A stretch of 31,754 bases of DNA from a virus: positions 1-31,754 of IMG/VR virus record IMGVR_UViG_3300031775_000018, one strand, 5' to 3'. A program made the translations under genes and the position numbers. Positions 107-28,445 of the stretch are shown here, piece after piece. A model generated the notes under the pieces. That model saw only the letters and a list, made by a program, of their open reading frames with translations. It made no database searches and was not told where the DNA came from. Numbering within the stretch: position 1 is the stretch's first letter; each line of letters starts with the position of its first letter.

Positions 107-114
107 TATTTATA
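107..114 (-). promoter_or_regulatory. T4-type late promoter box TATAAATA
   Basis: The minus strand reads TATAAATA from 114 to 107, an exact match to the T4 late promoter recognised by gp55 polymerase. It overlaps the TAA stop of the nucleotidyltransferase gene and lies 26 nt before the ATG at 80, the usual spacing for a late gene. gp55 is encoded in this window. Confidence 0.7.
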
Positions 115-6082: not shown

Positions 6083-6638
6083 AGACTTCCTCGGTGATCA
6101 AAAAATTAAATGATATAGTAGACCTCAGTTTAGAGGACTTGTTCATGGGAGCAGAGTGCTCTAACCATGCGGGGAAGATAATTAAATCACCTTCAGTTAC
6201 CCAAGGTATTATAGTATTCTGTTCTTCACCTTGGCAAGCCAATAATGTCTCGTTAGGGTGATAGAACTGAGTACCCTTGTGTTCATTGGGATCAAAGTGT
6301 ACATAATATACACCAGACCACTGACCAGGAGCATGTATATGCTTATCCTGCCAGTTGGTACGATCATAACAGTTCATCCAGAGGTCAGTGAGTAAAAGAT
6401 TACCAGGTATTCTTGCCTCATCTTGGAACTCATCAAAGACATGACCAAACTCCTCCATACATTCTACAATAGGAAACATCTTAGTGCCAAATGTAGTAAA
6501 GAGATTGCAGTTCCACCCTTCAGGTGTACTGGTCTCTAGTTTGTGTTCCTCATAATACTGTTCAACCCTCTCCTTAATAGGAGCATGATCTTCTATATGA
6601 TATCTGAATATCTTAGTAGGAAATATATCAACCTTCAC
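6027..6638 (-). CDS. 2OG-Fe(II) oxygenase-like protein between uvsX and 41
   Basis: The 203-aa product has the family opening [11 protein letters not shown], the iron-binding region [18 protein letters not shown], and the distal block [30 protein letters not shown] with the third His and the 2OG-binding Arg. I start it at a GTG at 6638, because a GGAGGT Shine-Dalgarno lies 5 nt upstream and this places FPTxIF at the usual distance. A GTG at 6665 would add nine residues. The start overlaps the uvsX stop by 11 nt. The 3' end runs 56 nt into gene 41, an unusually long overlap. Substrate unknown. Confidence 0.75.
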
Positions 6639-7650: not shown

Positions 7651-10142
7651 GTAAATAAAAATTCAAGTGTTGATGTCTTCTCTGTCTCCCATCCTATCAC
7701 GTTAGTGATGATCTGTAAAGGGTCGAGGAAACTTTTCTGGAACTGTGCCTTACGATCTATACAACGTTCAAGTTCCAACTCCCTAGGAAATGTATTCAAA
7801 AATGATATGACATTCTCTCTAGTGTAGTTCTTATTATCCTTCTGCTTCAAGAACAAATACTTTATCTTCTCACCCTCTTGTACTAAGGGGTATTTGTGTT
7901 CGAGTTTTTTCTTAGCGACATAAAAATTATATAAGAGAGTTCCACGAACATGTAACGGGCATCCCTTTGAATACACGTCTGTTGTTGATTTGTATTTCTT
8001 GATTCCATTGACCGACCTAGGAAATGCAATGTCTTCAGGCGGTAACGAATAGAACTCATCCTTGAATCTATCTATAAAGGTTACCAACTCGTCCTGCTCA
8101 CCTGACATCATGATGTCAAGAGCATCTTTAATCGCTGTCCTACATGGTGATGGTGTTGATGACTTGACTGCCTCAATACCCATCATCTTAAGCTTAGGTT
8201 TATTATACCTAACACCTTCACTGTCCCAGACATTCAAGATGTATCTCTTCTTCGCAGTCCAGATACCCCTAGCAGCAATGTTCTCCCTCTTCATGGACAT
8301 CTTTTGGTCATAGGCATTTACATAGTCTGCTAGTTCCTTATACGACCTATCAATGAATGGTTCGATCTTCTCCTGACATGCCTTGTCGAGGAAGTTGACG
8401 ATCTTCTCCTGTGATACTTCTTTATCACCAAAAACTGTAGATACCAAGCGGTCCAAATTAAGGTAAATACTATCGGTATCACTTGCGATGACATAATCTT
8501 CTCCCTCTGTATTCAATAACTTATTAAGGTACTCATTCATCTTATTCTCTATCCATCTGATAGAGACCTGACCTGATAGAGTAATCGCCTCAGCATTAGC
8601 AAGGTTATAATATCTAAAGTACTGGTTACCAATGGCACCATAAGCAGAGTTCAGTTGGATCTTACGAGCCATCTGAATGTTATTGTACTTACTAATCTGC
8701 TTCTCTAATTTCTTACTAGGATTCTTTTCATACTCCTGCTTTGCCATAAGCATGAGCTTCTTACTCTGTACACGTTCATCGTATATCTTCTGCATTATCT
8801 TAGGCAAGAATCCTCTTATGTCCTTACGATACTGTGCTCCATTAGCACACGTAGAGTACTCAGGATTAATAGGACACTCTTGGTTTAAGATCCTTTCAAC
8901 ATTTGCACTGGCATGTCTAGTCTCCCGGAGGGTTTCTGGACTGATATTGTACTGCATAATAAGATGAGGGTACAAGCTATTAAGGTCAAAACTGACCACC
9001 CAATCATAGCGTCCTGGTTTCGGTTCCTTGACATAAGCCCCTGCGTACTGTTGATTCTTATCTGATCTTTTTGTTGGTGGAACTACGATGTTCCTCTTAC
9101 CTAGGAAATTATATATGAGTGTGTCCCACATACGAACCTGATAGTAAACATCCTTCATATTAACCTTAGCATCATACGCTAAAGCAATAGCAAGTTCTAC
9201 CAGTTTCATCTTGTCTTCTAGTTGAGAGACAAGTTCAACGTCCTTGATGTTGTAGTCAATAAACTTCTGCCAGTCCTTAGTATAGAACTCCTTAAAGTTC
9301 TCGAACTCACTGTGATCCAACTTCTGTTGTCCCAGTTCTACAAAAGCAATATGATCTAACCTGTATGATTCCTGATTAGTATAAGTGAACTTCTTATACA
9401 AGTCAAGGTAGTCCAGCACATTGATACCATACATGTTGTATATGATCTGCTGACGACCCTTTATCTCCATCTCCTCTCGGTGTACTATACCCCAAGGAGA
9501 CATCATCCTCATCTCTTTGTTACCAAAGAGTCTCTCCATACGTCCACAGATATATGGTACGTCATATAGTTCTACATTCCAACCAGTAAGAACATCTGGG
9601 AAATCAGTTTGCCAGTAAGCAAGAAAGCTGCGTAGCAGATGTTCTTCACCGTCGCACAAAATGAACTCAACGTCCTCACGATCCGTCTTATAATCCCTCG
9701 TCCCCCATACTTTAAGCTTACGGCTAGCATAGTCCTGTACTGTGATCGATAGTAATGGTTCCGCACATTCACGTACGTTAGGAAAGCCATTCTCACATGC
9801 AACCTCAATATCGAGCGACGTAATCTTAAGTGCTTTGAGATCGTAATCCACCTCATCCTTAAACTCCGACGAGATGTATTGATATAGGAATCTATCATAC
9901 CCATGAACCTCAAATCCATCTACATCCTTATATTTGTCTCTAAATTCACGTGCCTCCTTGACAGTATTGAATTGTATAGGCTTGGCAAATCTACCGTCCA
10001 AGGTTTTATACTTGGTCTCGGTATTGCTAACCACATACAAAGTAGGTGAGAACTTAAACTTCCTTTGGATACGTTGTCCATACTCGTATCCCAAATAGAG
10101 GAGATCGTTCCCGACTAATTGAACATTGGTGTAGAAACTCAT
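7647..10142 (-). CDS. 43: DNA polymerase gp43 (family B)
   Basis: The 831-aa protein is the replicative polymerase. The 3'-5' exonuclease motif I is [11 protein letters not shown] (Asp111, Glu113, matching the T4 positions). Polymerase motif A is DLNSLYP (386-392), motif B is KIQLNSAYG (494-502) and motif C is SDTDS (554-558). The C terminus ends LEFLFT, a hydrophobic tail like the clamp-binding peptide of T4 gp43, expected to contact gp45. It is shorter than T4 gp43 (898 aa), as usual in cyanophages. The ATG overlaps the upstream small gene by 4 nt, and all catalytic residues looked for are present. No split or intein is seen. Confidence 0.96.
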
Positions 10143-10402
10143 TCAGTGCAAGTCTTATACTTCTTAAGGAGTTCATCCTTTGGTTCTAAGATTGTAGCAA
10201 TAGTATCAGAATAAATCAACACGTCATCGTCCACTGTGTGAAGTGGCCATGGTTCTAATGTACCATCCTCCCTCACCATAAATGGTTGTTCTAAATGAGC
10301 AGCAGGTTCTTCCTCAAGTGTCTCGATCTTGCTGATCAGGTACGTCCCCGACTTCAGTAGTATCAGTTGTGTCTCCAACTGACTCGCTAGTTCCTTCGCC
10401 AT
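10139..10402 (-). CDS. Small conserved-domain protein C upstream of polymerase (87 aa)
   Basis: The protein (MAKELASQLETQLILLKSG...) resembles its two upstream neighbours: a start strand LILLKSGTYLISKIETL, a HLEQPF block, an acidic loop, then TIATILEPKDELLKKY. This G-x-x-[IL]...P...P..LL..Y layout suggests a small all-beta barrel of Sm-like type; that is inference. The ATG at 10402 is preferred over 10489 because the homology begins just after it. Even so, the first 89 nt overlap the end of the previous gene in another frame, unusually long here. It overlaps gene 43 by 4 nt, so its translation may couple to that of the polymerase. Confidence 0.6.
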   Translation of the reverse strand: MAKELASQLETQLILLKSGTYLISKIETLEEEPAAHLEQPFMVREDGTLEPWPLHTVDDDVLIYSDTIATILEPKDELLKKYKTCTE

Positions 10403-10802
10403 CGTCAATCTCTTGTAATAATTTATCTGCTTCTTCAAACATGTCATCAAGATCCTGCTCCTCATAACTGAGATTGAATCTCTCCTCATGCTTCTTGAAA
10501 TTCTCTTCGTACCTAGCCTCGTCTATAGCAGAAATATACTGGGCATTAATAGCATCCAGTGGTTCATATACTGTGACCACATGACTGCCTGGTAAAAAGA
10601 AGTCCTTGTCTTTGCTCAAGGGAGCCCAAGGAAACCACTCCAACTGATACCCTTTATCACCACCAGCAGTGCTGACAATATCAAGTCGAAATGGTTTATG
10701 CATATGATACCCAAGAGGTTTCTCAGTCTCAGGCTCAATTATTTCTTTTACCTCAGCGATGACTTCCTCACCTGTCCTAAGCATTAATAATTTTATACTC
10801 AT
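10314..10802 (-). CDS. Small conserved-domain protein B (162 aa)
   Basis: Not named by any family I recall with confidence. It has an N-terminal small beta domain (MSIKLLMLRTGEEVIAEV, HKPFRL, EWFPWAPL, FFLPGSHVVTVYEPLDAINAQY; residues 1-90), then a helical, strongly acidic tail rich in Glu, Asp and Thr (about 105-162, EQDLDDMFEEADKLL and onward). The N-terminal domain aligns by eye with proteins A (10799-11194), C (10139-10402) and D (25160-25543). The ATG overlaps the stop of A by 4 nt. Its acidic tail is encoded by the same DNA as the start of C. Confidence 0.65.
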   Translation of the reverse strand: MSIKLLMLRTGEEVIAEVKEIIEPETEKPLGYHMHKPFRLDIVSTAGGDKGYQLEWFPWAPLSKDKDFFLPGSHVVTVYEPLDAINAQYISAIDEARYEENFKKHEERFNLSYEEQDLDDMFEEADKLLQEIDDGEGTSESVGDTTDTTEVGDVPDQQDRDT

Positions 10803-11194
10803 ACTACCGTTCCATCAGGAGCTATGATCTCAGGAATAGTAGTTGCTACTGGTGCTCCTTGATCACCTTGCTTCTTACGTACGTTACTTAAGTATGTGTG
10901 AAGTAAACTAGGTGCTGGTTCCATTATAGAAACAACATAGTCTGGTTGGATAGCAATCCTTGTGTCAATGGTGAAAGGATTCCAAGGTGTGTACCTTATC
11001 TTAATCTCCTGATCCTCAAAGGTTTCTGGATCAGTCACCTGTGATGGTTGCTCTGAGATCTCTACCTTATAAGGGACAGTCATCAAGTATGCCTGTCTGT
11101 CACCAGAGTCTTTATCAACTGCTTCCTGTAAGTCACAGATGACAGTATCACCATCTCGTGTCAGAAGTAACTTAATTCTTGATTCGTCAATCAT
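10799..11194 (-). CDS. Small conserved-domain protein A (131 aa)
   Basis: It shares a domain with B, C and D: SRIKLLLTRDGDTVICDL, PYKVEI, RYTPWNPF, IAIQPDYVVSIMEP...LLHTYLSNV. I place the start at ATG 11194 (MIDESRIK) because a perfect sigma70 promoter has its -10 at 11221-11216, putting the 5' end of that mRNA near 11209, past the alternative ATG at 11236. The upstream ATG does have a GGGGAG ribosome-binding site and could be used on read-through or late transcripts, adding 14 residues. This is the first gene of an early-type unit leading into gene 43. Function unknown; an RNA-binding role is a guess from the Sm-like look. Confidence 0.65.
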   Translation of the reverse strand: MIDESRIKLLLTRDGDTVICDLQEAVDKDSGDRQAYLMTVPYKVEISEQPSQVTDPETFEDQEIKIRYTPWNPFTIDTRIAIQPDYVVSIMEPAPSLLHTYLSNVRKKQGDQGAPVATTIPEIIAPDGTVV

Positions 11195-11215
11195 GGCGTA
11201 GTTCTTTGTACTAAC

Positions 11216-11244
11216 ATTATAGAGGGGAGCTAACATAATGTCAA
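11216..11244 (-). promoter_or_regulatory. Consensus sigma70 promoter (TTGACA-N17-TATAAT)
   Basis: The minus strand has TTGACA at 11244-11239, exactly 17 nt of spacer, then TATAAT at 11221-11216: no mismatch to the bacterial consensus. Transcription would start near 11209, about 15 nt before the ATG at 11194, giving a very short leader with no clear Shine-Dalgarno sequence. It should be read by unmodified host polymerase and drive proteins A, B, C and probably gene 43. Confidence 0.75.
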
Positions 11245-12252: not shown

Positions 12253-12635
12253 CTCCTTCCTCCCGTGTCATGCTTTTGCCTAATAAAATCTAGTTGGGTT
12301 TTGGTGAGAAGTTTAAGGGCGATCTTTGCTTTGTCATTACTATAACCATAATGCTTTTTAACAAGATCCAGATCTTCAATCTGTTCCTTCTTCAACCAAG
12401 GGGTGAAACGCTTACGTTTCCTCAAAGTATTTAGCAAGAAGTCATATTGAAGACGGTTAGGCAAGTGTGTTGCCTTGTTCATCTCGTTTGCATATAAGAT
12501 ACTATCAACATGACCAGACAGACATCTATTAACGACGTAACTAGGATAAGACTTGATGCGATCAGGATCCTCAAGATATAGATGTTTCTTAGTGGTGTTG
12601 ATGGAAGTAAGGATGTCAGATAATTCACTGCTCAT
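12249..12635 (-). CDS. 62: Clamp-loader small subunit gp62
   Basis: The 128-aa protein sits directly before regA, where T4 has gene 62, and is the expected non-ATPase partner of gp44 in loading the gp45 clamp. Recognisable features are the N-terminal LSDILTSINTTKKHL and the Lys/Arg-rich LNTLRKRKRFTPWLKKEQIEDLDLVKKHYGYS segment. It is shorter than T4 gp62 (187 aa), as in other cyanophages. The assignment leans on gene order as well as sequence. It overlaps both neighbours by 4 nt. Confidence 0.8.
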   Translation of the reverse strand: MSSELSDILTSINTTKKHLYLEDPDRIKSYPSYVVNRCLSGHVDSILYANEMNKATHLPNRLQYDFLLNTLRKRKRFTPWLKKEQIEDLDLVKKHYGYSNDKAKIALKLLTKTQLDFIRQKHDTGGRR

Positions 12636-13246
12636 AATATAGGTGGGGATTCAAAATCGTAACTGTGGTCTGGTGTGATATTCATAGAAAGTATCACTCT
12701 CCTTCCAGTAGTATAGTTAGGTTCAGTCTTATGACGCAACCAACCAGGAAAGAATATCACATCACCTTGAGATACATTAATGCGTCTCCAAGGTTCTACG
12801 TTCATGGGTTCTGATGCTCTGATCTCTGTAAGAGGATCTCTTATGAGCAGTTCACCTGAACCTTCTGGTTTTAATATGTATGCTGTGGCTACAACACAAG
12901 GACCGTGCTGATGTTCGTCAGTCCAGTCCCCTTCATAGTGTTCATTATACCATGAGTTAGATATAAAGAAAGGATAGTTATCATACTTCCATGCTTGTTT
13001 AAGGTACATCATCTTCTCTCTAAGATAATTGATGTACGTATGATTACCATCATTATTGTGGGGGAAGTGATGACCTGGTACACCCACTAGATTGGCAGTA
13101 GATCTACCACCATGTTCTATGCTGGTCTGTACCTCATACTGATTAACCAACCCAAAGAGTTGGTCAGCAATCTTAACCTGCTCATCAGTATTAAAATCAA
13201 ACCTATCCCTATAAACATAAGGATAGGATACTCCAACCTGCTTCAT
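12632..13246 (-). CDS. 2OG-Fe(II) oxygenase-like protein before gene 62
   Basis: The 204-aa protein has the iron-binding region GDWTDEHQHGPCVVATAYIL (HxH type) and the distal block GDVIFFPGWLRHKTEPNYT with GRRVILSMNI, giving the third His and a 2OG-binding Arg. The N terminus (MKQVGVSYPYVYRDRFDFN) lacks the FPTxIY opening seen in its paralogues here. It is joined by 4-nt overlaps to the 71-aa gene and to gene 62, so it is co-translated with the clamp loader. The reaction is presumably a hydroxylation; the substrate is unknown. Confidence 0.7.
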   Translation of the reverse strand: MKQVGVSYPYVYRDRFDFNTDEQVKIADQLFGLVNQYEVQTSIEHGGRSTANLVGVPGHHFPHNNDGNHTYINYLREKMMYLKQAWKYDNYPFFISNSWYNEHYEGDWTDEHQHGPCVVATAYILKPEGSGELLIRDPLTEIRASEPMNVEPWRRINVSQGDVIFFPGWLRHKTEPNYTTGRRVILSMNITPDHSYDFESPPIL

Positions 13247-14818: not shown

Positions 14819-15760
14819 TCATTTAAAATTACACTCCACCATTATTTCTGTGAGTGCTGCGAGTAAGTTAATTTCTTGATCTGCCACAAAAGCAATCTGA
14901 TATTGGTACTTGGCAATGACAAGTACAGCAGAAGGGATACTGCTAGGCTCCAAGTGAGTGTATAAAGCATCGTATAGTGATCTAAGTATCATGTTAGGGT
15001 CATTGTCTAGATTGTCAACTAACCACTTACGTACATTACCATAGTCCTTTCTCTTAAGAAATCCAACTAGAGCATCCACGTTAGAGTTACCTACGTTAGC
15101 AAGTATACCATTATCAATGGTACCACTTACTGAGTATCGCTGACATTCATTAAGTACTCGTCTCCAATCTGGGAAATATCGTTGAATGAGTTCTGCGACG
15201 ACCCTCTTATCAAAACTAATCCCTTCACCGTCCAAGATGTTGTTAAGTCTGTTGAAGAAACTAGCAGCGATCTGTTGCTTCTCATTTTTATCAATGGCGA
15301 AGTCGATACATGAACAGCGGGAATGTAGGGGGTCAATTATCTTGTTCTTAAAGTTACACGTGAAGATGAACCTACAATTTTTGTGAAACTCTTCCACGAA
15401 CGCACGTAATAATAACTGAACGTCGTGGGTTGTGTTGTCTGCCTCATCGATGATGATGACTTTGTGAGCAGAGCTGCCCAGTAAGGAAACAGTTGATGCA
15501 AAGTTTTTGGCTTGGGATCTGACTGTATCCAGAAACCGTCCTTCGTCCGAACCATTAATGACATAGTAATCTACTCCGATCTCTTTACATAATGCCTTGG
15601 CTACCGTGGTCTTACCTATGCCAGCAGTACCAGATAATAATAGATTAGGGATCTCACCCTTCTGTACAAATTCTTTGAAGGTATCCTTGATACGTTTAGG
15701 TAGGATACAATCATCAATCTTCTGAGGTCGATACTTCTCGACCCATAAGAAATCACTCAT
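14819..15760 (-). CDS. 44: Clamp-loader ATPase subunit gp44
   Basis: The 313-aa protein is an AAA+ ATPase, forming a pentamer with gp62 that opens the gp45 ring and places it on primer-template. It starts SDFLWVEKYRPQKIDDCILP, the standard clamp-loader opening. Walker A is GTAGIGKT (44-51), Walker B IIIDEADN (102-109), and the arginine-finger SRC motif is in DPLHSRCSCIDF. Length matches T4 gp44 (319 aa). The ATG overlaps the upstream oxygenase gene by 4 nt. Confidence 0.95.
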   Translation of the reverse strand: MSDFLWVEKYRPQKIDDCILPKRIKDTFKEFVQKGEIPNLLLSGTAGIGKTTVAKALCKEIGVDYYVINGSDEGRFLDTVRSQAKNFASTVSLLGSSAHKVIIIDEADNTTHDVQLLLRAFVEEFHKNCRFIFTCNFKNKIIDPLHSRCSCIDFAIDKNEKQQIAASFFNRLNNILDGEGISFDKRVVAELIQRYFPDWRRVLNECQRYSVSGTIDNGILANVGNSNVDALVGFLKRKDYGNVRKWLVDNLDNDPNMILRSLYDALYTHLEPSSIPSAVLVIAKYQYQIAFVADQEINLLAALTEIMVECNFK

Positions 15761-16323
15761 GATAAAACTGTGTTAATAAGAATCCGAGTCTGGTGGTCGG
15801 AAGGAGAATATCCAGTATGGACATAACTCCCATCAAATAATACCATACGACCTGGCTTAGGTGCAATGGTTGTCTTAATTTTCATATCAGTAGGGTAAGA
15901 CTTTGCCCACTCCTGCTGATGGTCATAGATAACGGTGTCTCCATCGGTCTCATTTAGGTATACTATAGAGGCAATGTGAGGTGTGTCAATATCTATATGT
16001 GGTGGATGTAAATAGTGGTCATGTAAGACAGTCATGTCCAATCTACACCGTAAAATATGCTCCGCATGGGCATAATCCTTCAACTGATAAATCAAGGGTG
16101 CTACAAGCGTTGCTAGGGGCGACTGATCGAACTGATCGGGTTGCCATGGTGGTACAATTCCAACAGAGAATCCAAAGTCTTCCACCTTGTCTGTAGCATA
16201 GGTAGATAAAGATTGTGATGACTGTATAAACCAAGGACATTTCTCTCCTATGGAATCTTGTAATGCCCTCAGGTATGAGGGCGATACAAAGTCATCAACT
16301 ATTTCAATATCAATCTTCTTCAT
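15757..16323 (-). CDS. 2OG-Fe(II) oxygenase-like protein (HxD type) between 45 and 44
   Basis: The 188-aa protein has HPPHIDIDTPHIASIVYLN (HxD iron ligands), a GDTVIYDHQ turn and PGRMVLFDGSYVHTGYSPS with the distal His, then the Arg of QTRILINTVL. This is the prolyl-4-hydroxylase/PHD-like layout. It is wedged between clamp gene 45 (14-nt overlap) and clamp-loader gene 44 (4-nt overlap), which are adjacent in T4. Substrate unknown; co-translation with the clamp is likely. Confidence 0.75.
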   Translation of the reverse strand: MKKIDIEIVDDFVSPSYLRALQDSIGEKCPWFIQSSQSLSTYATDKVEDFGFSVGIVPPWQPDQFDQSPLATLVAPLIYQLKDYAHAEHILRCRLDMTVLHDHYLHPPHIDIDTPHIASIVYLNETDGDTVIYDHQQEWAKSYPTDMKIKTTIAPKPGRMVLFDGSYVHTGYSPSDHQTRILINTVLS

Positions 16324-17005
16324 AAGATGAATCAGGTTCTAGTGCTATAAGATAGGTAACGTTATCGGAACTAATCCAACGACTAACACCAGACTTACTA
16401 ACCTCTACATGATATCCAGTAACAATTGCTTGTGACTGTTCAATCTTACTGATATTCTCAGACTTAAGATTGAATTGGAACTTAGCATCAGTCTCACCTA
16501 CATCAATAGAATAGGTATTAGATGAAGCATTCTCACGATCAGCAACAACCACCTGTATAGTACCATCATTACTAATGATAGAGAAATCATCTATGTTACC
16601 ATAGATGGATAGAGCCTGACTCAATGATCTGATCTGACCAATAGAGATATCAAACTCACAATCTACACTAGGAAGTTCTGGTAACTTCTCAGGTGGTGTG
16701 ACCACGATTGAAGGATCAGCAAAGAAATACTTTGCTTCAGTATTCCTTCCCTTAATAGTGACAAAGGATTCGTTTTCAAATTCTAAGTCAATATTCATGT
16801 CCTCAGATAGAGAACATATCTTAAGGAACTCATCCAAATCATAGATGGCAAAATCCCTAGGAAATGTTTCCTCAACCTCTGTACTTGCTAGTACATTCTT
16901 CTGAATAGACAGTGTAGATAACTGACTACCTTGCTTGATCCGTATAGATCTGTTAATTGATGTAAGATTTCTCAGAACCTTATACGTACGATCAGAAAGT
17001 TTCAT
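16310..17005 (-). CDS. 45: Sliding clamp gp45
   Basis: The 231-aa protein is the trimeric processivity clamp for gp43 and, in T4, the mobile activator of late transcription with gp55. It begins MKLSDRTYKVLRNLTSINRS, matching the T4 start MKLS; I therefore reject the longer GTG start at 17023. Further matches to T4 include FAIYDLDEFLKICSL, FADPSIVVTPP and the C-terminal YLIALEPDSS. It overlaps the DUF3310-like gene by 14 nt and the next oxygenase gene by 14 nt. No good ribosome-binding site is visible, so coupling or an atypical site is likely. Confidence 0.94.
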   Translation of the reverse strand: MKLSDRTYKVLRNLTSINRSIRIKQGSQLSTLSIQKNVLASTEVEETFPRDFAIYDLDEFLKICSLSEDMNIDLEFENESFVTIKGRNTEAKYFFADPSIVVTPPEKLPELPSVDCEFDISIGQIRSLSQALSIYGNIDDFSIISNDGTIQVVVADRENASSNTYSIDVGETDAKFQFNLKSENISKIEQSQAIVTGYHVEVSKSGVSRWISSDNVTYLIALEPDSSYEED

Positions 17006-17387
17006 AGGGTGTAGTGTCTTCACGATTGTCTTTGTTAATAAAATGATGTAATAGAACGCAGTAATGAATTGCCTTTAAAATGTCGTGTGATGGACGACCT
17101 TTCTTGTCATATCTTGACAAGTATTTGATCGCATTACTTCGACAAAAAGCAGGGGCATCACCAGTTGCTTCGATGAGATCAAGGGTCTGTATGTTAGTCC
17201 CTTCACTGGTGTAATGTCCCTTGTAAGTGCTGGAGATATACTCTCCTGCCTTCTTAAGGATCTCATCCTCATCATACTTACAGCGGATGGACTGATTGTC
17301 CATCCCTGCTTCTGGTGTACTCTTTTCCATACTTTCTAGTGATTCCTGGAGCATACCCCACGCATTTGTTTGGTTATCCTTACTCAT
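16992..17387 (-). CDS. DUF3310-like protein
   Basis: The 131-aa protein has the C-terminal block NIQTLDLIEATG...FCRSNAIKYLSRYDKKGRPSHDILKAIHYC, the pattern of the DUF3310 family found in many phages (often labelled nucleotide kinase, without good proof). The start at ATG 17387 overlaps the cobS stop and has a GGAGGA site 11 nt upstream; a further upstream start at 17414 would overlap cobS more. It precedes gene 45 by a 14-nt overlap. Its function is not established. Confidence 0.78.
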   Translation of the reverse strand: MSKDNQTNAWGMLQESLESMEKSTPEAGMDNQSIRCKYDEDEILKKAGEYISSTYKGHYTSEGTNIQTLDLIEATGDAPAFCRSNAIKYLSRYDKKGRPSHDILKAIHYCVLLHHFINKDNREDTTPYETF

Positions 17388-18456
17388 TATAGGCTTGATC
17401 CTCCACTTTGTCAAATTCTACATCAGCATCCACTTTGTCATACAACTCTTGGAATGCTCTACTGGTCTCTTCATCGAAACGAGAGATACAGGTGGCAATT
17501 GCCTTTGCCTTATCACCAAAGATTTGGTAGGCACGGGCTATGTGAACAAGACGACGTGTACTAATGACCTCATCGATGCCACCATCCTTGAACGTTTTAC
17601 GGATGATGTCTGCCCAGTCACATAAGTTCTTGACATAACCCTCATCCTCACAATGATAACCAAGTATCCTTGCTTCAGTAACTGGACTAGGATACTCTTG
17701 CTCAAAGGTTAATGGGAATCTCTCAAGGAATGCTTCATTAAGTACATTAGTACCAACGAATCTACCATCCTCGGATCCTTTACCCTTAGTGTTAGCAGTA
17801 GCAACTACAGTGAATCCATTAGTAGGTTTCACGTAGCGTCCTATCTTCTTAAGGAAGACACCTTTACCCTCTAAGACACTCTGTAAGCAGAGAATCTTAT
17901 TAGATGCTAAGTCCACCTCATCTAAGAGAAGAACAGCACCACGCTCTAGTGCCTCTATCACAGGACCATTATGCCAAACAGTGTTCCCATCAACAAGACG
18001 GAACCCACCAATAAGATCATCCTCATCAGTTTCAATAGTAATGTTAACACGGATCAATTCTCTATTCAAGACAGCGCAAGCTTGCTCTACTGAATAAGAC
18101 TTACCGTTACCTGATAGACCAGTGATGAATACTGGGTAGAAGGTCTTGGATTTAATGACCTTCTTAAGATCAGAGAAGTTACCAAAAGGTACGAACTCTT
18201 CGTCCTTGAATGGTACTAGGTTCTGATCAACTCTCTCTACTGTAGCAGGAGATTTCGTAAGTGTCTTTTCTAATGCTTCACGTACTGTAAGATTCCATTG
18301 ACCACGTTTGCCCTCTACTTTATACTTACGTAATTGTTTAGCAAGGGTAGGATAGGTCAATCCTTGAGCAGCACAGTACTCACGTACTTGTGCGGCATCG
18401 ATACTGTCCCCATACTGAGAACGAAGTTCGGATGCTCTGTCGAGTTTCTTAGCCAT
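17380..18456 (-). CDS. cobS: CobS-like MoxR-family AAA+ ATPase
   Basis: The 358-aa protein has Walker A GLSGNGKS (113-120), a pore-loop-like DDLIGGF (146-152), Walker B LLLDEVD (176-182), sensor-1 TVVATANT and the LERFP region expected to hold the arginine finger. This is the MoxR/CobS type; CobS with CobT drives cobalt insertion by CobN in aerobic B12 synthesis, and cyanophages are known to carry cobS. Residues 20-48 look like a helix-turn-helix or small adaptor domain. No CobN is in the window, so cobalt chelation is not shown. The CobT-like gene lies 0.7 kb upstream behind a closely similar regulatory element. No Shine-Dalgarno sequence is visible. Confidence 0.88.
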   Translation of the reverse strand: MAKKLDRASELRSQYGDSIDAAQVREYCAAQGLTYPTLAKQLRKYKVEGKRGQWNLTVREALEKTLTKSPATVERVDQNLVPFKDEEFVPFGNFSDLKKVIKSKTFYPVFITGLSGNGKSYSVEQACAVLNRELIRVNITIETDEDDLIGGFRLVDGNTVWHNGPVIEALERGAVLLLDEVDLASNKILCLQSVLEGKGVFLKKIGRYVKPTNGFTVVATANTKGKGSEDGRFVGTNVLNEAFLERFPLTFEQEYPSPVTEARILGYHCEDEGYVKNLCDWADIIRKTFKDGGIDEVISTRRLVHIARAYQIFGDKAKAIATCISRFDEETSRAFQELYDKVDADVEFDKVEDQAYNE

Positions 18457-18469
18457 TGGGGTTTGTTTC

Positions 18470-18524
18470 GTATGTACTTACAATACAGTACCAAGAGGGT
18501 ATTGTAAGCCACTTAGGGACACTT
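18470..18524 (-). promoter_or_regulatory. Regulatory module copy 2 (before cobS)
   Basis: Plus-strand sequence holds GTATGTACTTACAATA (18470-18485), a 10-bp perfect inverted repeat CTTACAATAC / GTATTGTAAG (18477-18486 and 18499-18508), and ACTTAGGGACACTT (18511-18524). The first and last elements recur in the same order and spacing before the CobT-like gene. It spans the gap between the oxygenase stop and the cobS ATG. A shared promoter, operator or RNA structure is inferred. Confidence 0.6.
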
Positions 18525-19146
18525 ATTTGATCGTCACATTCGATCCAGCATAAGTTCCTATGGTTCCTCGGATGAAAACATCAAAGGCAACACACCAACG
18601 TACGTTCCCTGACTCGTTTTTCTCCACGTTATGTATAAGTTGTGAAGGAAATATTAAGATTTGTCCATTGGTAGGGTGGCACCTCCACGACTGCATGGTG
18701 AACTTGTTAAACATATGTACATCAGGTGCTAGCGTAGGCATGAAACAGTTAGGATGTAACTGTCCCTTCTCCATAACCACATCACCACTCTTCTCAAACA
18801 CATCAAGATAATATATCCCTGAGAATATACTATTCATATGACAGTGATTCTGTGCCCAGTCACCAGGTAGGTGCTGAACACCCCATCCTCTAAGTAAATC
18901 TAGGTACACATGAGCAGAAACATTCAACTGACCATAAGCAAAATACTTAACAGCATTTTTAATCTCATGGTACAGTGATCTGAGTTCATCATACTCCCAT
19001 ATATTCCTATTGTTAGAAATATAACCATTATCTGTGGCAGTACGATCATAGTCTAATGTCTTAACAAAATCAAGCCACTCTTTCTGTACTGGGATGTGAC
19101 TCTCCAGTACAGGGGTGGGAAATAATTGATGTACCTGAGGTTTCAT
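18523..19146 (-). CDS. 2OG-Fe(II) oxygenase-like protein between the CobT-like gene and cobS
   Basis: The 207-aa protein opens VHQLFPTPVLESHIP, the FPTxx family start. The iron-binding part reads WAQNHCHMNSIFSGIYYLDV (HxH type), and the distal part is GQILIFPSQLIHNVEKNESGNVRWCVAFDV with His and Arg. It is joined by a 4-nt overlap to the CobT-like gene and is followed by the cobS regulatory module, so it is the middle member of a three-gene group with the MoxR-VWA pair. Substrate unknown; it could be a client of that pair, but nothing in the sequence shows this. Confidence 0.75.
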   Translation of the reverse strand: MKPQVHQLFPTPVLESHIPVQKEWLDFVKTLDYDRTATDNGYISNNRNIWEYDELRSLYHEIKNAVKYFAYGQLNVSAHVYLDLLRGWGVQHLPGDWAQNHCHMNSIFSGIYYLDVFEKSGDVVMEKGQLHPNCFMPTLAPDVHMFNKFTMQSWRCHPTNGQILIFPSQLIHNVEKNESGNVRWCVAFDVFIRGTIGTYAGSNVTIK

Positions 19147-21275
19147 GCTATCAATGCTATAAATTCATTCAATATTCTCTTACTTGATTTCTTATTCTTA
19201 AGAGACTTCTTAAATGCTCTAGTAATATCACCCTTCTTAGCATCTTCTTTCACTTCAAACTCATTCTTAGTCTCATCGAATGTATTACTATGGATATAGA
19301 GTGATCTAGTATAAGCAGAAGTCTGATCAATGAATGATCTATGCTTCTTCCACTCAACCTGAGACCTCTGTCTATCTTCCCATGTTTGCTTAGTCTGTAC
19401 TCTACTCCAGTCATTACCATTAATCAAACGTATGCTAATGATAGATGCTTGAGGGAAGTTATCACGTAGATTCTGTACCCATGGTGATGAATCGCCATAG
19501 TAACACTGTCTGTGATTGAATGCTGGATAGATTCTACCTATCTTACGATCACGTAATTGACATCCATGTATATCTCTAGGGAATAATTTATCCTCTGAAC
19601 TTATTCCTAAAGATTCTATGTCCCATGCGTGTCTAGAAGGTGCCCATCTTTGTACACCACTTCCTTCTCCATCAGTTAGGTTGATAACATGTACCTTCTC
19701 AACCTTATTAGTATTCTGAAACTGAGGAATGACCTGCTTCATAGCAATGATCGCTTCATTAAGAGGGGTGCCAGAGAGATAAAGTCTGCTAGGTATTCCA
19801 TAACGTGTATGGTGACGAACCGCATGTGACATTCTGAATACATTTCTACATGCTCTATCTAAATCCTTAGTCTTTGCTTTACTTGTTATCAAGTTGAGCA
19901 AATTAAACCCTGCTATTCTGATATCACCCTCCTTTTTAGGTTGCTTATACCAGCAATTCTCACCCCTTTCCCACTCATTAGTAAAAGCATAGACTTCAAA
20001 AGGAATCTTAACTTTACGACAGAATGATACGAGGTTAAGTAACTGCTTTACAGTATCATGTAAGACCATCTGCATAGATCCAGACCAATCTAAATTAAAT
20101 ATTAGACCATGGTTCTTACCATCAGCAGTAATTCTTATCTTCCTGAAAATATCGTCATTATATTTGTAAGTGTGAAGCTTCGTTGTATCGAGAACCCCAG
20201 TGCGACTAACAGAACTACGAGCATGACTCGAAGCTGCCTTACGACACTCGAACTCTTTAACCAAATAGTTGACTTCACGGTTTGAATTAATTTTGTACTG
20301 ATTATATGCTTCATTGACTTGATCAAATGTATCTGGACGAGAAAAGAACTCTTTCCAATAATCTTCTAAGCACTTATGAACCTCTTCACTACTAGCAATT
20401 ATCTGTTTAAGATCTAACTCTGGAAGTTGTACATAATTTATGATAGGAGCAGAAGAATCAACAAGGTCTTGGATAGATTCAGACAAAGTGGAATCTGTTT
20501 TTGCTTCCAAGTCTTCTTCATGTCTTTCACCACCACGTTGGGCACTTGAATCAGCAGCACCTTCATCATGGTTAAGGTCTTGACTCTCTGGTTCAGTTTC
20601 AGAACCGTCCTGATCCCCTTCTTCTGTAGTTTCTGTATTAGATTCGTCCGATGACTGTTGGGTAGGCGGTACTTCATCCGATTGCAAGCTACCGTCAGGC
20701 TCTTGGGAATCGGTAGGAGTCTGAGAAGGTTGATTCTCCTTCTGCTTCCTGTCATATGTATACAAATCCTTAGCATACTGAAGGACTTCTTCAAATGTTT
20801 CTAGATCCCATCCTGTAAGTTTATAAGTCTCCTCTTCTTCAGTGAAAGGTACATCAATAAAGTGACCAATCTTGAAGAAAATATTAAGACGATCAGCAAG
20901 TGAGAAGTCATTAAGATCTTTACCCTCTAACTGGAAGAAGTCTTCAGCAGAGAACTTCTCATAACCTTTACGGAAGGTCTTAGGTAGTCCAGCGTACCTA
21001 CGCTTCATCAATTTCTCAATTCTTATATCTTCAGCAACATTCACATAGGACTGAGGTACAGAACCAACGTGATCCCATGTATTAGGGGTGTATAAAGCAT
21101 GTCCAACCTCATGTGCGATGAGCATATCCAACACTTCATTGGATGCTTTCTCCCACAATGGTAGGGTGAGGACTCTACGCTCTACATCAAACTGTGCTGT
21201 CTCTACCTGACGGTGCTCTACGATCAGATCTTCCTGAGCAAGCAGTTTAGCAAGTTGTCCTTTGACTTCAAGCAT
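19143..21275 (-). CDS. CobT-like protein: HEVGH metallopeptidase domain plus VWA domain
   Basis: The 710-aa protein has three parts. Residues 1-175 hold a gluzincin-type zinc motif HEVGHALYTP (His55, Glu56, His59) followed by NVAEDIRIE (79-87), which offers the third ligand. Residues 178-262 are an acidic, Ser/Thr/Gln-rich linker like that of CobT. Residues 385-710 hold a von Willebrand A domain with a complete MIDAS: DWSGS (396-400), Thr503 in LSGTPLNEA and Asp535 in NLTDGEGSG. CobT, ViaA and NorD proteins pair a VWA domain with a MoxR ATPase, here the cobS product. The GAGGAAACAC ribosome-binding region precedes the ATG. A working peptidase is possible but unproved. Confidence 0.82.
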   Translation of the reverse strand: MLEVKGQLAKLLAQEDLIVEHRQVETAQFDVERRVLTLPLWEKASNEVLDMLIAHEVGHALYTPNTWDHVGSVPQSYVNVAEDIRIEKLMKRRYAGLPKTFRKGYEKFSAEDFFQLEGKDLNDFSLADRLNIFFKIGHFIDVPFTEEEETYKLTGWDLETFEEVLQYAKDLYTYDRKQKENQPSQTPTDSQEPDGSLQSDEVPPTQQSSDESNTETTEEGDQDGSETEPESQDLNHDEGAADSSAQRGGERHEEDLEAKTDSTLSESIQDLVDSSAPIINYVQLPELDLKQIIASSEEVHKCLEDYWKEFFSRPDTFDQVNEAYNQYKINSNREVNYLVKEFECRKAASSHARSSVSRTGVLDTTKLHTYKYNDDIFRKIRITADGKNHGLIFNLDWSGSMQMVLHDTVKQLLNLVSFCRKVKIPFEVYAFTNEWERGENCWYKQPKKEGDIRIAGFNLLNLITSKAKTKDLDRACRNVFRMSHAVRHHTRYGIPSRLYLSGTPLNEAIIAMKQVIPQFQNTNKVEKVHVINLTDGEGSGVQRWAPSRHAWDIESLGISSEDKLFPRDIHGCQLRDRKIGRIYPAFNHRQCYYGDSSPWVQNLRDNFPQASIISIRLINGNDWSRVQTKQTWEDRQRSQVEWKKHRSFIDQTSAYTRSLYIHSNTFDETKNEFEVKEDAKKGDITRAFKKSLKNKKSSKRILNEFIALIA

Positions 21276-21568: not shown

Positions 21569-21576
21569 TATTTATA
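21569..21576 (-). promoter_or_regulatory. T4-type late promoter box TATAAATA
   Basis: The minus strand reads TATAAATA from 21576 to 21569, overlapping the last codons of gene 46 and 25 nt before the ATG at 21544. It is an exact match to the T4 late box and is placed as expected for driving the 62-aa gene and perhaps the CobT-like gene. Confidence 0.7.
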
Positions 21577-23293
21577 TGCCACTTTCTTCAGTGGTCACTG
21601 AGAAGTTCTGTTTCTTCTCTACTCTAAGGATCCTCTCGAACTTGTCCTGAAGGACATCAGGTTTGTGAGATATGATGAATACATTTGTACTATCGTTAAA
21701 TGCTCTCAGGATTTTCATGAAATCATAGGTACCTGCTATGTCAAGGGAACTGTCAAAGATCTCGTCCAGTATCAACAGGTTAGTATTGGCACTGTTCTTC
21801 ATCTTAGCTATGGTTCTCCATGTAAACAGTAGGGCAAGGTCGATCCTCATCTTCTCACCCTCTGAGAATGAAGCATAGCAGAACTCATCCCTGAACCTAG
21901 ACTTAATGGTCTCTTCAAACCCCTCATCTAGTTCAAAGGATACGTAGAAATCAAGGTCATTGAGGTACTTATTGATCATCTTGTTCATGATCGGTAGGTA
22001 CTTCTTAATGATCTGACTCTTGATACCTGTGTCTCTAAGGAGTTGAGAAGCAACATCGAAGTTATCTCTCTTCTTCCTAGCCACAGACATAGTTTCCTCT
22101 GCTTCTAGTCCCTCTTTTGCTAGTTCCCTAAGGTTCTTCTGCTCTCTCTTAAGGTTGCCTGTACCTTGGCAAGCAATCTCCTGTTCAATTTTCTTAATGG
22201 ACTTCCTCTTCCATCCAATCTCTCTATTATTAGTGGTTATCTGGGTGTGTAGTTCCCTTATCTGCTTGAGTACATCCCTTTTCTTGTCCAGTATACCAGT
22301 AATGGCCTCTATTTCTTTCTTGACTTGGGATGTTCCCTCTGTAAGTTCTTGAAGCTGTGTGCTAATGCTTCCTTTCTTATCTGACCGTAGGCTATCAGGG
22401 ATTCCTTGCCTGCAAGTTGGACAATGATCATGCTCATCAAAGAATGTCAACTCCTTATTTAGTCTATCTGCTTTATCTTCAAACTTAGCTTCAAAGAGAT
22501 GGAACTCACTTAACTTCTTATCAACATCACCGAACTCATCAACCTCTTTCTCTAAAGATGAGACACTCTCAGATCCAGATTGGATTAATTGTTCAAGACT
22601 GAGAATATCTGTCTCTAAAGATTCGATGTCAGACCTCTTGACTTCCTGATTAGACTTGGTTTGCTGCTTAATGTCAGCAATAAATCTCTTCTGGATGTCA
22701 ACCTTTTCCTTTATAAGGTCAAGGGTGTACTGATGTTTGGTAAGTGAGTCCTTAACTCCCTTTGCCCTCTCCTTTAGTAGGGTATTCATCGTAGAGAAGA
22801 TCTTAATATCAAGGAGATCCTCAATAACTTCTCTACGATTGGGGGCAGTCAACTGCATAAACGGAACAAAGGTGCTACTACCTAGTATCACCACCTGTGT
22901 AAAAGACTTATAGTTAAGCTTCAATACAGACTGTTCCAACCAGGTTTGTTGGTCCCTTTGGTTGGACTCTTGATTTAGTACCGTACCATCTCTAGTGATC
23001 TCAAAGACATTAGGTTTTATTCCACGCTTGATAGACCAGTCGGTAGAACCGATTGAAAAATCAACCATAACAACAGTATCCTTCTCGTTGACAGCATTGA
23101 TCAACTGAGACTTTGATATCTTACGAAACGGTTTGTTGAACAGGACAAAGCATATAGCATCTAGCATCGTGCTCTTCCCTGCCCCATTAGAACCGACAAC
23201 AAGTGTCGATGGAGAACCATTCAAGTCAATTTCAGTGTAAGAGTTACCAGTAGAAAGGAAATTCTTCCATCTGATAGTCTTGAATATAATCAT
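21572..23293 (-). CDS. 46: Recombination exonuclease subunit gp46 (Rad50/SbcC-like)
   Basis: The 573-aa protein is the ATPase arm of the gp46/47 nuclease that resects DNA ends and, in T4, degrades host DNA. It begins FKTIRWKNFLSTGNSYTEI with Walker A GSNGAGKST (34-42). A coiled coil (about 165-430) is split by the zinc hook CPTCRQG (Cys291, Cys294). The C-terminal part has the ABC signature SFSEGEKMRID and Walker B LLILDEIFDSSLD, followed by the IISHKPD switch region. It lies 12 nt after the DUF3110-like gene, which separates it from gene 47. No Shine-Dalgarno sequence is evident. Confidence 0.95.
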   Translation of the reverse strand: MIIFKTIRWKNFLSTGNSYTEIDLNGSPSTLVVGSNGAGKSTMLDAICFVLFNKPFRKISKSQLINAVNEKDTVVMVDFSIGSTDWSIKRGIKPNVFEITRDGTVLNQESNQRDQQTWLEQSVLKLNYKSFTQVVILGSSTFVPFMQLTAPNRREVIEDLLDIKIFSTMNTLLKERAKGVKDSLTKHQYTLDLIKEKVDIQKRFIADIKQQTKSNQEVKRSDIESLETDILSLEQLIQSGSESVSSLEKEVDEFGDVDKKLSEFHLFEAKFEDKADRLNKELTFFDEHDHCPTCRQGIPDSLRSDKKGSISTQLQELTEGTSQVKKEIEAITGILDKKRDVLKQIRELHTQITTNNREIGWKRKSIKKIEQEIACQGTGNLKREQKNLRELAKEGLEAEETMSVARKKRDNFDVASQLLRDTGIKSQIIKKYLPIMNKMINKYLNDLDFYVSFELDEGFEETIKSRFRDEFCYASFSEGEKMRIDLALLFTWRTIAKMKNSANTNLLILDEIFDSSLDIAGTYDFMKILRAFNDSTNVFIISHKPDVLQDKFERILRVEKKQNFSVTTEESGI

Positions 23294-23305: not shown

Positions 23306-23560
23306 TTAAAAATCAGGAGGGATTACAATCTGATCTGGAGTGATCACATAGTATGGGTGATTGCGCTCTATACAAGCACCAATCGCTTCTCTCTCGCTCA
23401 CTTCCACCACACTCATGAGTGGGTAGTCGTCGGCCTCTAATAAACCAGCATAGCGCATTGCGTCGTCTTTGTCAACAAAAAGGTAAAGTGTCTTCCCAGT
23501 CTCTTCTTCTACTGAGTAGGCACCCTCATCTTCTTTACCTTTTAATGCTAGGACAAACAC
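23306..23560 (-). CDS. DUF3110-like cyanobacterial protein
   Basis: The 84-aa protein reads FVLALKGKEDEGAYSVEEET... with a striking DKDDAMRYAGLLEADDYPLMSVVEV block (30-54). The pattern of a short beta start, EGxYS, then D-D-A-x-R-[YF]-x-x-x-L-E-A-x-D-[YF]-P, matches the cyanobacterial DUF3110 family as I know it. Function is not known. The start is GTG at 23560, overlapping the gene 47 stop as TAGTG, with a GGAG 8 nt upstream. It is probably of host origin and points to a cyanobacterial host. Confidence 0.75.
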   Translation of the reverse strand: MFVLALKGKEDEGAYSVEEETGKTLYLFVDKDDAMRYAGLLEADDYPLMSVVEVSEREAIGACIERNHPYYVITPDQIVIPPDF

Positions 23561-24594
23561 TAGACTTGCTCCAACGCTTCTACATATAATGATTTTAGAA
23601 GGGTCTTGATACCATCCTTGTCTTGGTAATCCATGCCGTCAACATAGTTCTCAAGAATTGTCAGGGTATCCTCCTTCTCTATATCTAGGCTATCGTCCAG
23701 TTCTGAATCAAGTGAGGAATCCTCTACCACCTTGATCTCATGCACCCCGTGCACGTATAACTGACTGATAAAATATTCAAACTTAGCAGAGTCTGTCTTA
23801 TTTTCTACGATAACCTTAACAACCTTACCTGCGTACTCTTTAGGATCAGGTAGCTTCCTCTCATCATAGAACACCTTAGAGAACATGGTGTAAGGGTTGC
23901 GAATAAACTCCTTCTCTAGGGTATCTGTATCATATACATGGAACCCTCTGTCATCACCCCAGTCATTCCAGTAAATTTCATAGGGGTTACCTAAGTAATG
24001 GAACTGATCCTGACTAGATTTCTTATGGTAGTGACCTGAGAAGACCTGCTTAAACTTCTTAAGGGCAGTTATAGGAGTACCATGGGTCATTACATACCCT
24101 TTGTGTGCTTCAAAACCATTGAGTTCCAAGTGACCCATAGCCACCTCACAATCTGTGCTCTCTATGAGGTCGAAGGTGCCCTCTGTGTTCTCTGAATTGA
24201 TCCAAGGTATGAATAGTATAGGTAGTCCACCTATTTCTACTTCTGTAGCATTCTCATATATGTGTACGTTCTCATACTCTCTCAAAAAATTATCAAGAGT
24301 GTTAATCTTATTAGTATCCTTGTAGTATGCTGTATGATTACCCACAAGGGAATGAACTTCGACCCCCATTTTTTGTAGGCGGTTAAAGTAATTATTTCTT
24401 GCCCAGTTAGCTGCCCATATATCTACATTCTTTCTGTTATCGAATGTATCTCCAAGATCTAAGACTACCTCTATCTTATTCTTCTCTAAGAAAGGGAAGA
24501 ATATATCATCATAAAATCTTTGGAAGTTGTCATGAAAAACTCGACTAGACTTCCTCGCACCAAAGTGCTGGTCAGTTATTATAACTAGCTTCAA
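23560..24594 (-). CDS. 47: Recombination nuclease subunit gp47 (Mre11/SbcD-like)
   Basis: The 344-aa protein is the metallophosphoesterase partner of gp46. Motifs are ITDQHFG (6-12), LDLGDTFDNR (45-54), LVGNHTAYY with the catalytic His, MGHLELNG and SGHYHKK. The C-terminal part has an acidic stretch (DSSLDSELDDSLDIEKEDT), perhaps a cap or gp46-contact region. Length is near T4 gp47 (339 aa). It overlaps gene 55 by 4 nt. Confidence 0.95.
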   Translation of the reverse strand: MKLVIITDQHFGARKSSRVFHDNFQRFYDDIFFPFLEKNKIEVVLDLGDTFDNRKNVDIWAANWARNNYFNRLQKMGVEVHSLVGNHTAYYKDTNKINTLDNFLREYENVHIYENATEVEIGGLPILFIPWINSENTEGTFDLIESTDCEVAMGHLELNGFEAHKGYVMTHGTPITALKKFKQVFSGHYHKKSSQDQFHYLGNPYEIYWNDWGDDRGFHVYDTDTLEKEFIRNPYTMFSKVFYDERKLPDPKEYAGKVVKVIVENKTDSAKFEYFISQLYVHGVHEIKVVEDSSLDSELDDSLDIEKEDTLTILENYVDGMDYQDKDGIKTLLKSLYVEALEQV

Positions 24595-27014: not shown

Positions 27015-27420
27015 CATAGCCTTTAAGCATCTTGGCAAACTCAATCGCATTCTTTATTTGAAACGATTGGTTGTTCACTGCCGTAAGGATGCTCTTGAGA
27101 GCATCTATCATCTGGTTATAATACTTTAATTTTAGTATTGCTTTCTGATACTTCTCATCGGAGTCTATGTAGATGCCGATGTCTGTCTTTAATAGTTTTA
27201 TGTGGAAGGGCTTCTCAGACTTTCCAGTATAGAATTCCCAGAGTTCACGGTAAAGTGACTTCAGTTTGATTTCATGCTCATCTCTAAGCATGGTTACTTG
27301 GTTAAGTAACTGTAGATATTTAGCGTGCTTCCTTGGGATGTCAAGGGAGTCGTGATCTAGTTTTTCATCATCTAGTTGAGAATCCTTTTTCCAAAGACTC
27401 TCGATCAATTCAAGATTCAT
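27007..27420 (-). CDS. uvsY: Recombination mediator UvsY
   Basis: The 137-aa protein is the helical mediator that loads UvsX onto single-stranded DNA. It matches T4 UvsY by length (137 aa), the opening LELIESLWKKDSQLD, the DHDSLDIPRKHAKYLQLL block (T4 KLQYEA...SKWLNK) and the C-terminal AIEFAKMLKGY. Predicted structure is mostly alpha-helical with no nucleotide-binding motif. It overlaps the TauD-like gene by 4 nt and uvsW by 8 nt, forming one unit with uvsW. Confidence 0.9.
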   Translation of the reverse strand: MNLELIESLWKKDSQLDDEKLDHDSLDIPRKHAKYLQLLNQVTMLRDEHEIKLKSLYRELWEFYTGKSEKPFHIKLLKTDIGIYIDSDEKYQKAILKLKYYNQMIDALKSILTAVNNQSFQIKNAIEFAKMLKGYDV

Positions 27421-28445
27421 AACTCATCTAGTATAGATTTACGTTTCTTATACCTCTCTATATATTCCTCTTGGAAGTAGGGTATATATTCCCCACCTAC
27501 TCCATCAAGATCATGTGCGTATCGAAGTGCCATCCGATCAGTGGTATCACCTAGTCTTCTGTGCTGTAGAATAGTATTGTCAAACAATATCAGATCATTA
27601 TCATTCTCCCACCAGTAGTCCCAAGAATATTTCTCTAGATCTTTCCTTATCTGAGACAGTATAAGCTCTGAGTCATGCTCACTCATACCTTTGATGTGTG
27701 TGACACTATTATAACTGTAATGTAGACCCTTGACACCTCCTGGACTCTGAATAACCATCGGTATCTCAACGTCTGGGTCATGACATATATTCATATTCAT
27801 GATGAAAGCATCCTGCTCCTCGTTAAGACCAGGGTTAATAGCATATGGTTTGAAATTATGTACCAATACCATCTCATCCAGTTCACTACGGAAGCTATCA
27901 GGAAGACTATAATAGTAGTCTGTAGTCGTCTGGAACCCAGTCGCACTCTTAGTCATACCCTTAACACCCAATAGACATACATTAGGTGTAAAACATATAT
28001 CTCCACTCTCATTACTGTGCCAAGTCAGTTCACCATCAGCAAACATACCAATTCTATTACCATTCTTGTCTCTTATACCAGAGACCTTAAGCATATCACC
28101 GTGACGAGACTTAATACCACCCACTCTGATACGAAAATACTCCTTGAGTACCCTTCTATCTGCATCTGATAGAGAAGGATCCTTAAGGAGTTTATAGACA
28201 TTACCATTTGCTTGGGGATATCGTGCCCACATGAGACGACCCCAATTCAAACGATCTCTACCTAACATCCTCGCCCACTTGAGGTAGGAACGTTCGTCAA
28301 GTTTGACATTTCTTATTATGGTAATCAGTTCACGGAGGTGGATCCTTCCTACCTCCATCCATTCATCATCTGTAATCTTTGTAAAATCTAGATCATCAAT
28401 GAAGACACCCTGACTACCACATCCAGGTATCTTTGTCACCTTCAT
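27417..28445 (-). CDS. TauD/TfdA-like dioxygenase with altered iron motif
   Basis: The 342-aa protein has the TauD-like order: RNVKLDERSYLKWARMLG near the N terminus (the clavaminate-like FRG equivalent), DGELTWHSNESGD (138-149) where TauD has WHTD, and LILFDNTILQHRRLG with distal His295 and Arg304 in DRMALRYAHD. The usual HxD becomes His143-Ser-Asn145, with Glu146 next to it, so iron binding may be altered or use the Glu. TauD family members are 2-oxoglutarate-dependent and take up small sulphonates and similar compounds. The gene sits between the tail-tube-like gene and uvsY (4-nt overlap). Substrate unknown. Confidence 0.7.
   Translation of the reverse strand: MKVTKIPGCGSQGVFIDDLDFTKITDDEWMEVGRIHLRELITIIRNVKLDERSYLKWARMLGRDRLNWGRLMWARYPQANGNVYKLLKDPSLSDADRRVLKEYFRIRVGGIKSRHGDMLKVSGIRDKNGNRIGMFADGELTWHSNESGDICFTPNVCLLGVKGMTKSATGFQTTTDYYYSLPDSFRSELDEMVLVHNFKPYAINPGLNEEQDAFIMNMNICHDPDVEIPMVIQSPGGVKGLHYSYNSVTHIKGMSEHDSELILSQIRKDLEKYSWDYWWENDNDLILFDNTILQHRRLGDTTDRMALRYAHDLDGVGGEYIPYFQEEYIERYKKRKSILDEL

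Follow-up and report, generated by a model that had tools for sequence, protein, structure and literature searches.

The 31,754-base IMG/VR virus record IMGVR_UViG_3300031775_000018, referred to below as the window, is a 31.7-kb fragment with the gene order of a T4-like marine cyanophage: gp22 scaffold, gp23 major head protein, uvsY, uvsW, gp55, gp47, gp46, a VWA protein gene, an oxygenase gene, cobS, a DUF3310 gene, gp45, gp44, gp62, regA, hsp20, gp43, uvsX and a DnaB-like helicase gene. The subject of this report is the pair formed by the VWA protein and the CobS-like ATPase. Three open reading frames (ORFs) make up the locus, all on the minus strand and transcribed in the order VWA (19143-21275, 710 aa), oxygenase (18523-19146, 207 aa), cobS (17380-18456, 358 aa). 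A first-pass annotation, made from the sequence alone, had given these coordinates exactly and had described a MoxR-VWA pair of CobT-like architecture enclosing a 2-oxoglutarate (2OG)-Fe(II) oxygenase; the ORFs, motifs and profile matches confirm that description.

The CobT-like VWA protein matches the phrog_459 'peptidase' family over residues 2-710 (1.6e-235). It consists of an N-terminal zinc metallopeptidase-like domain, an acidic disordered linker, a helical region and a VWA domain with a complete metal ion-dependent adhesion site (MIDAS). The zinc motif HEVGH occupies residues 55-59 (21099-21113, minus) and the third-ligand region EDIRIE, in which E82 is the proposed ligand, residues 82-87 (21015-21032, minus). 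The linker, residues 183-254 (20514-20729, minus), has 22 D/E against 2 K/R among its 72 residues, and its predicted local distance difference test score (pLDDT) is below 50. The MIDAS motif DWSGS is found at residues 396-400 (20076-20090, minus), with T503 at 19767-19769 and D535 at 19671-19673. All of the elements that had been read in the 710-aa protein beforehand, namely HEVGH, ED-x-RIE, the acidic linker and a complete MIDAS, were located.

Conservation was examined in an alignment of 42 diverse homologues, which share 28-94% identity with the window VWA protein. No more than 47 columns are invariant, among them H55, E56, H59 and E82 of the zinc site, D83 and R85 beside it, and the MIDAS residues D396, S398, S400, T503 and D535, the DWSGS motif being invariant. 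Such invariance of the zinc and MIDAS residues is strong sequence evidence for selection on both sites. By chance, a protein of such length and composition would contain about 0.05 HExxH motifs, and since the zinc and MIDAS residues are conserved across homologues a chance motif is excluded. HExxHAL is retained in 107/109 full-length homologues.

An AlphaFold model of the full VWA protein has a mean pLDDT of 76, with the linker disordered. The model of residues 1-180 (20736-21275, minus), the minigluzincin-like domain, has a pLDDT of 88 and a predicted template modelling score of 0.82, and places HExxH on one helix and E82 on a second helix (75-93). When this domain was compared with the PDB using Foldseek, the first ten matches were the minigluzincins abylysin, jannalysin and selecase, plus ArdC; PprI/IrrE and Wss1 ranked lower. 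The best two matches had probabilities of 0.99-1.00 and E-values of 0.046-0.052. The N-domain resembles minigluzincins, Wss1, ArdC and PprI in fold, in HExxH and in the second-helix glutamate, although to our knowledge none of these is joined to a MoxR ATPase or a VWA domain. The intact peptidase motif noted in the first-pass annotation therefore lies in a domain whose model matches gluzincins. With HExxH and the downstream glutamate invariant and a zincin fold in the model, the zinc site of the VWA protein is predicted to be real. The VWA part of the model matches the MIDAS domain of midasin (MDN1) and the VWA domain of NorD. A Pfam search with the window VWA protein gave no significant family, the DUF2201_N metallopeptidase model from Pfam weakly matched only 2/42 relatives, and a direct sequence search of the protein against the PDB gave nothing meaningful.

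The partner is a MoxR/CobS-like AAA+ ATPase (17380-18456, minus) with Walker A at 113 and Walker B at 175. It scores 67 bits with AAA_5 (2e-18, cut-off 22 bits) and 27 bits with CbbQ_C (4e-6, cut-off 20.6 bits), matches phrog_249 (2e-131), and has midasin, CobS, CbbQ and NorQ as PDB relatives. Linkage was counted in homologous loci taken from collections of viruses and genomes, provided that the VWA protein was complete and at least 4.5 kb of sequence followed downstream. In 59/59 loci cobS is on the same strand as the VWA gene, downstream in 58 and upstream in one, so the genes do not occur independently, a check proposed in the first-pass annotation. The gap between them ranges from 86 to 4,069 nucleotides (nt). 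An AAA_5 ATPase with Walker A and B, a VWA partner with a MIDAS and obligate linkage place the pair in the MoxR-vWA (CobST/NorQD/midasin) class, from which a physical complex and ATP-driven remodelling are predicted. NorQ-NorD, CbbQ-CbbO and midasin, which are also structural matches, share a MoxR-class ATPase and a VWA/MIDAS partner with the phage pair; their VWA partners are not known to carry a zinc protease domain. A related ATPase in Staphylococcus phage K (L025:3817-5825) is encoded near a DUF3310 gene, as is the case beside cyanophage cobS.

The VWA protein matches 463 phage records, 453 of them with coverage of at least 80%. Record counts by organism name are identical for VWA and cobS (365 Synechococcus, 61 'Cyanophage', 24 Prochlorococcus). 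In S-PM2, P-SSM2, P-HM1 and Syn19 the VWA gene is annotated 'peptidase' (T4-GC 146) and adjoins cobS (T4-GC 150); it adjoins cobS in the SAR11 phage HTVC008M too. These cyanophage genes are direct orthologues of the window pair in the same gp46-gp45 interval, and the window VWA protein belongs to the phrog_459/T4-GC 146 family by its full-length profile match and its gp46-VWA-cobS-gp45 position. The window proteins represent a divergent lineage, the VWA protein being at most 45% identical to orthologues in named phages, and differ in the oxygenase insert between the genes. cobS is a core gene of cyanophages (PMC3037559), S-PM2_119, the same protein as VWA, is a conserved cyanophage gene with no assigned function (PMC2984593), and the genes have been published as 'cobST, cyanophage core' (Liu 2021). 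The presence of the partner, which had been considered unusual, is the rule, as all T4-like cyanophages have the VWA gene in their core set. The pair is real, well-formed and already known in outline, and is a universal cyanophage core module. A MoxR-vWA pair with an N-terminal metallopeptidase was also reported in group 2.2 (T4-like) jumbo phages (Iyer et al. 2021, PMC7824862). Likened by description only, that pair (ASV44728/ASV44729) has the same architecture as the window pair and is probably of the same family.

Outside the virus collections, the nearest relative is on a 189-kb contig (QCLS01000003.1, L026) of the Prochlorococcus AG-418-C09 assembly. Its VWA protein is 54% identical to that of the window and it has the same oxygenase insert, which suggests a Prochlorococcus host for the window lineage.

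The enclosed oxygenase (18523-19146, minus; PF13759 2OG-FeII_Oxy_5, 3e-18) is a lineage-specific insert. A homologue lies between VWA and cobS in 5/92 loci (L003, L004, L006, L007 and L026), all close relatives; in other phages the gap contains nothing or unrelated genes. Three further oxygenases of the same family are dispersed in the window (3350-3937, 6027-6665 and 12632-13246). Because the insert is confined to close relatives and the other family members are scattered, the oxygenase is most simply a passenger. The gene overlaps the VWA stop by 4 nt, suggesting co-translation of oxygenase and VWA protein in the window lineage. This overlap, together with the resemblance of the ATPase to NorQ and CbbQ and of the VWA domain to NorD, would fit a pair that loads metal into or activates an iron enzyme or a host chelatase, such as the enclosed oxygenase or Mg-chelatase, in the manner of NorQD or CbbQO. 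We consider this improbable. The oxygenase is enclosed in so few loci, with four family members in the window, that its role as the client, which the first-pass annotation had put forward, was rejected as a general rule. Pairs are also found in phages whose hosts lack chlorophyll, and activation of a host chelatase fits poorly with pairs in phages of CobN-lacking hosts. The window encodes, in all, four phrog_81 2OG-Fe(II) oxygenases and one taurine-dioxygenase-like protein (27417-28445).

The phage pair shares its gene pairing and AAA_5 ATPase with CobS-CobT (PF06213, PF11775, TIGR01650, TIGR01651; PDB 9uka, 21vu), and the VWA protein shares with CobT the order N-domain, acidic linker, VWA domain and an E..R.E motif. 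It differs from cellular CobT in possessing HExxH, in its sub-equivalog score, in the lack of CobN and in low sequence similarity. When cyanophage proteins were compared by profile with 29 cellular CobTs, EDxRIE aligned with the CobT EQARVE motif, though the match is weak. None of the 29 has HExxH at the position of the zinc site; one has an unrelated HExxH elsewhere. Other phages supply intermediates. A Klebsiella phage protein matches PF06213 (1.4e-22) and PF11775 (6.6e-100), carries HEVGH, and matches phrog_459 at the zinc region (7.7e-5). A Roseobacter phage CRP-810 protein matches TIGR01651 over its full length (residues 10-630, 2e-52) and carries HEAGH; the CobT profile aligns its own RGeaDaiaLr, an HExxH-free site, with RGYVDHEAGH of CRP-810. 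With scores of 27-28 bits, the cyanophage N-domain profile recovers the proteins of the Rhizobium and Klebsiella phages.

Homology between the VWA protein and CobT is thus probable: weak when the two are compared directly, it becomes convincing through the Klebsiella phage and CRP-810 proteins, and the CobT likeness that the first-pass annotation had left to be checked is supported by this route. Judged by their profile matches, these intermediates are homologous to CobT over its full length and have retained HExxH, so that the published labels 'peptidase' and CobT agree. The window VWA protein would then be a distant CobT relative with an ancestral-type zinc site that was lost in cellular CobT, a direction of loss that we infer from these alignments. 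Weak PF06213 matches were also seen in the small alphaproteobacterial genomes G015, G017, G037, G053 and G055, possibly representing divergent or phage-type CobT.

cobS has long been listed as a cyanophage vitamin B12 gene, and its partner has been labelled peptidase or 'CobT mistakenly annotated as peptidase'. According to a published proposal (PMC8651126), phage CobST would work with host CobN to raise the cobalamin supply. The Prochlorococcus genome bearing the related phage contig has two CobN/ChlH-family proteins, which is in keeping with that proposal. The window proteins nevertheless fail the equivalogs: the ATPase scores 71 bits with the CobS model TIGR01650, for which the cut-off is 558.55, and the VWA protein has no match to the CobT model TIGR01651. 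CobN was not found within the window, and among 50,697 phage records searched for it there were two matches, neither of them a cyanophage. One is a near full-length CobN-like protein of Pseudomonas phage Y13 (OQ572414.1, 16457-20017), a rarity among phage records. The pair is present in Escherichia phage PhiR41_1 (recorded host K-12 MG1655), and no CobN-family protein was found in the E. coli control genome. SAR11, the host group of HTVC008M, is cited as relying on B12 scavenging or B12-independent routes (PMC4303638). Among 58 alphaproteobacterial genomes 41 have CobT, and 20/41 of these lack CobN, some genomes being possibly incomplete; CobT without CobN is likewise seen in the Caulobacter control. 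CobST may therefore have cellular roles outside B12 synthesis, as judged from these 20/41 CobN-free genomes (within G002-G064). The phage pair is unlikely to be a B12 cobaltochelatase or to have a B12 role, and an auxiliary pair working with host CobN is the most doubtful of the explanations weighed here. The remark in the first-pass annotation that no CobN is in view holds for the window and for cyanophage records alike, and its doubt about B12 synthesis is strengthened by the sub-cut-off equivalog scores, the near absence of CobN from phages and the E. coli phage with the pair.

Cyanophages carry the pair among replication and recombination genes, in the order gp46/gp47, VWA, cobS, gp45/gp44. 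Upstream of the VWA gene in the window are gp46, the recombination nuclease subunit (21572-23293, minus; phrog_77, 4e-174), and gp47 (23560-24594; phrog_100, 2e-111). In the other direction, cobS is followed by the DUF3310 gene (16992-17414, minus; PF11753, 8.8e-11), the gp45 sliding clamp (16310-17023, minus; phrog_223, 9e-67) and the gp44 clamp loader (14819-15760; phrog_168, 3e-133). In an unrelated group comprising SSU5-like phage-plasmids, Pseudomonas phage nickie and Rhizobium phage RHEph10, cobT-cobS is followed by dnaE, an order seen in 26/29 viral loci plus L190, L191 and L193.

The cyanophage late promoter is NATAAATA (PMC2984593). In the 200 nt preceding the VWA gene it was found in 3/108 loci (5.5 expected), and in the 200 nt preceding cobS in 4/96 (6.9 expected), a frequency that resembles that of replication genes. 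In Syn19 the motif lies 28-54 nt upstream of 6/18 virion-region genes (gp9, gp8, a YadA-domain structural gene, gp18, gp19 and gp22) and is absent upstream of the genes that surround the pair. A single TATAAATA at window position 21576 was considered as a late promoter for the pair and rejected, as it is not conserved beside the VWA gene. Published expression data for the VWA gene and cobS were not found in the main texts of articles.

These data bear on the role proposed for the jumbo phage pair, in which a chaperone and co-chaperone would fold or process structural proteins during virion assembly. That proposal takes the tail system of an archaeal virus as its analogue (PMC7824862), and a zinc protease would be suited to maturation cleavages. 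For the window pair it is disfavoured by promoter and context: no late promoter signal was seen upstream in about 100 loci, although one is detectable before Syn19 structural genes, the neighbours are replication and recombination genes, and the usual gp21 prohead protease is encoded elsewhere in cyanophages. Virion assembly is thus an unlikely role, though a less doubtful one than metal loading or B12 supply. Location and promoter data are indirect evidence, and they point to the replication phase more than to the late phase of virion assembly.

We propose that the two proteins form one AAA+/VWA remodelling or protease machine, not a B12 cobaltochelatase, and that its client most likely belongs to phage replication, recombination or early takeover; we put the probability of this reading at roughly 45%. 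The CobS-like AAA+ protein would form a ring and spend ATP. The CobT-like protein would dock onto the ring, where its VWA MIDAS could grip an acidic residue of the client, and the N-terminal zinc domain, held on the flexible acidic linker, would cut or hold that client. The client itself would most likely be a DNA replication, recombination or early-takeover protein of the phage. Ring assembly, MIDAS gripping, proteolysis and the client class are the parts of this best explanation that we infer.

Several points weigh against the proposed machine. The N-domain gives weak E-values in Foldseek (best 0.046), though the top matches are consistently zinc metallopeptidases, and the direct profile comparison of cyanophage proteins with CobT is weak as well (E about 0.01, probability 3-4%). 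Pseudomonas phage nickie has a CobT-like protein (L191:3974-6058) in which SEISK replaces HExxH, so the zinc site is dispensable in at least one relative; this apparent independent loss of the motif shows that the site can be lost. The replication-gene neighbourhood amounts to two or three independent cases only and might reflect inheritance rather than function. Finally, promoter absence is weak evidence of timing, since read-through from other promoters is possible.

The zinc domain might instead attack host proteins during takeover or counter-defence, with the AAA+ ring unfolding the target. The intact, invariant zinc site and the occurrence of the pair in phages of very different hosts are compatible with such a role, but the long strict conservation and fixed location are unlike those of fast-evolving counter-defence genes. 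PADLOC, which covers known defence proteins only, matched no defence family. We regard host attack as improbable, to about the same degree as metal loading.

A narrower form of the proposed machine is a replisome-linked AAA+/zinc protease that removes proteins from phage DNA or cleaves them there, by a logic like that of Wss1 or SPRTN acting together with an unfoldase; in cellular CobT, the N-domain would be a decayed form of this protease. This form is speculative and, like virion assembly, unlikely. If it were true, the motor of the B12 cobaltochelatase would derive from such a protease machine.

The analysis reconciles the two published labels, sets the oxygenase aside and weakens the B12 and virion-assembly readings. 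It suggests that both labels hold in part, the protein being related to CobT and having its zinc site intact, and that the CobT N-domain has a protease origin. A universal, unexplained core pair of very abundant ocean viruses thereby becomes a testable question of proteolysis or remodelling.

At the cobS end a perfect sigma-70 consensus, TTGACA-17-TATAAT, occurs on the minus strand (17414-17386) and could drive a separate transcript toward gp45. The true start of the DUF3310 ORF is probably internal, because its annotated TTG start is the -35 box. Elsewhere in the window, three adjacent small related proteins of the phrog_483 and phrog_431 families are encoded at 10139-11236.

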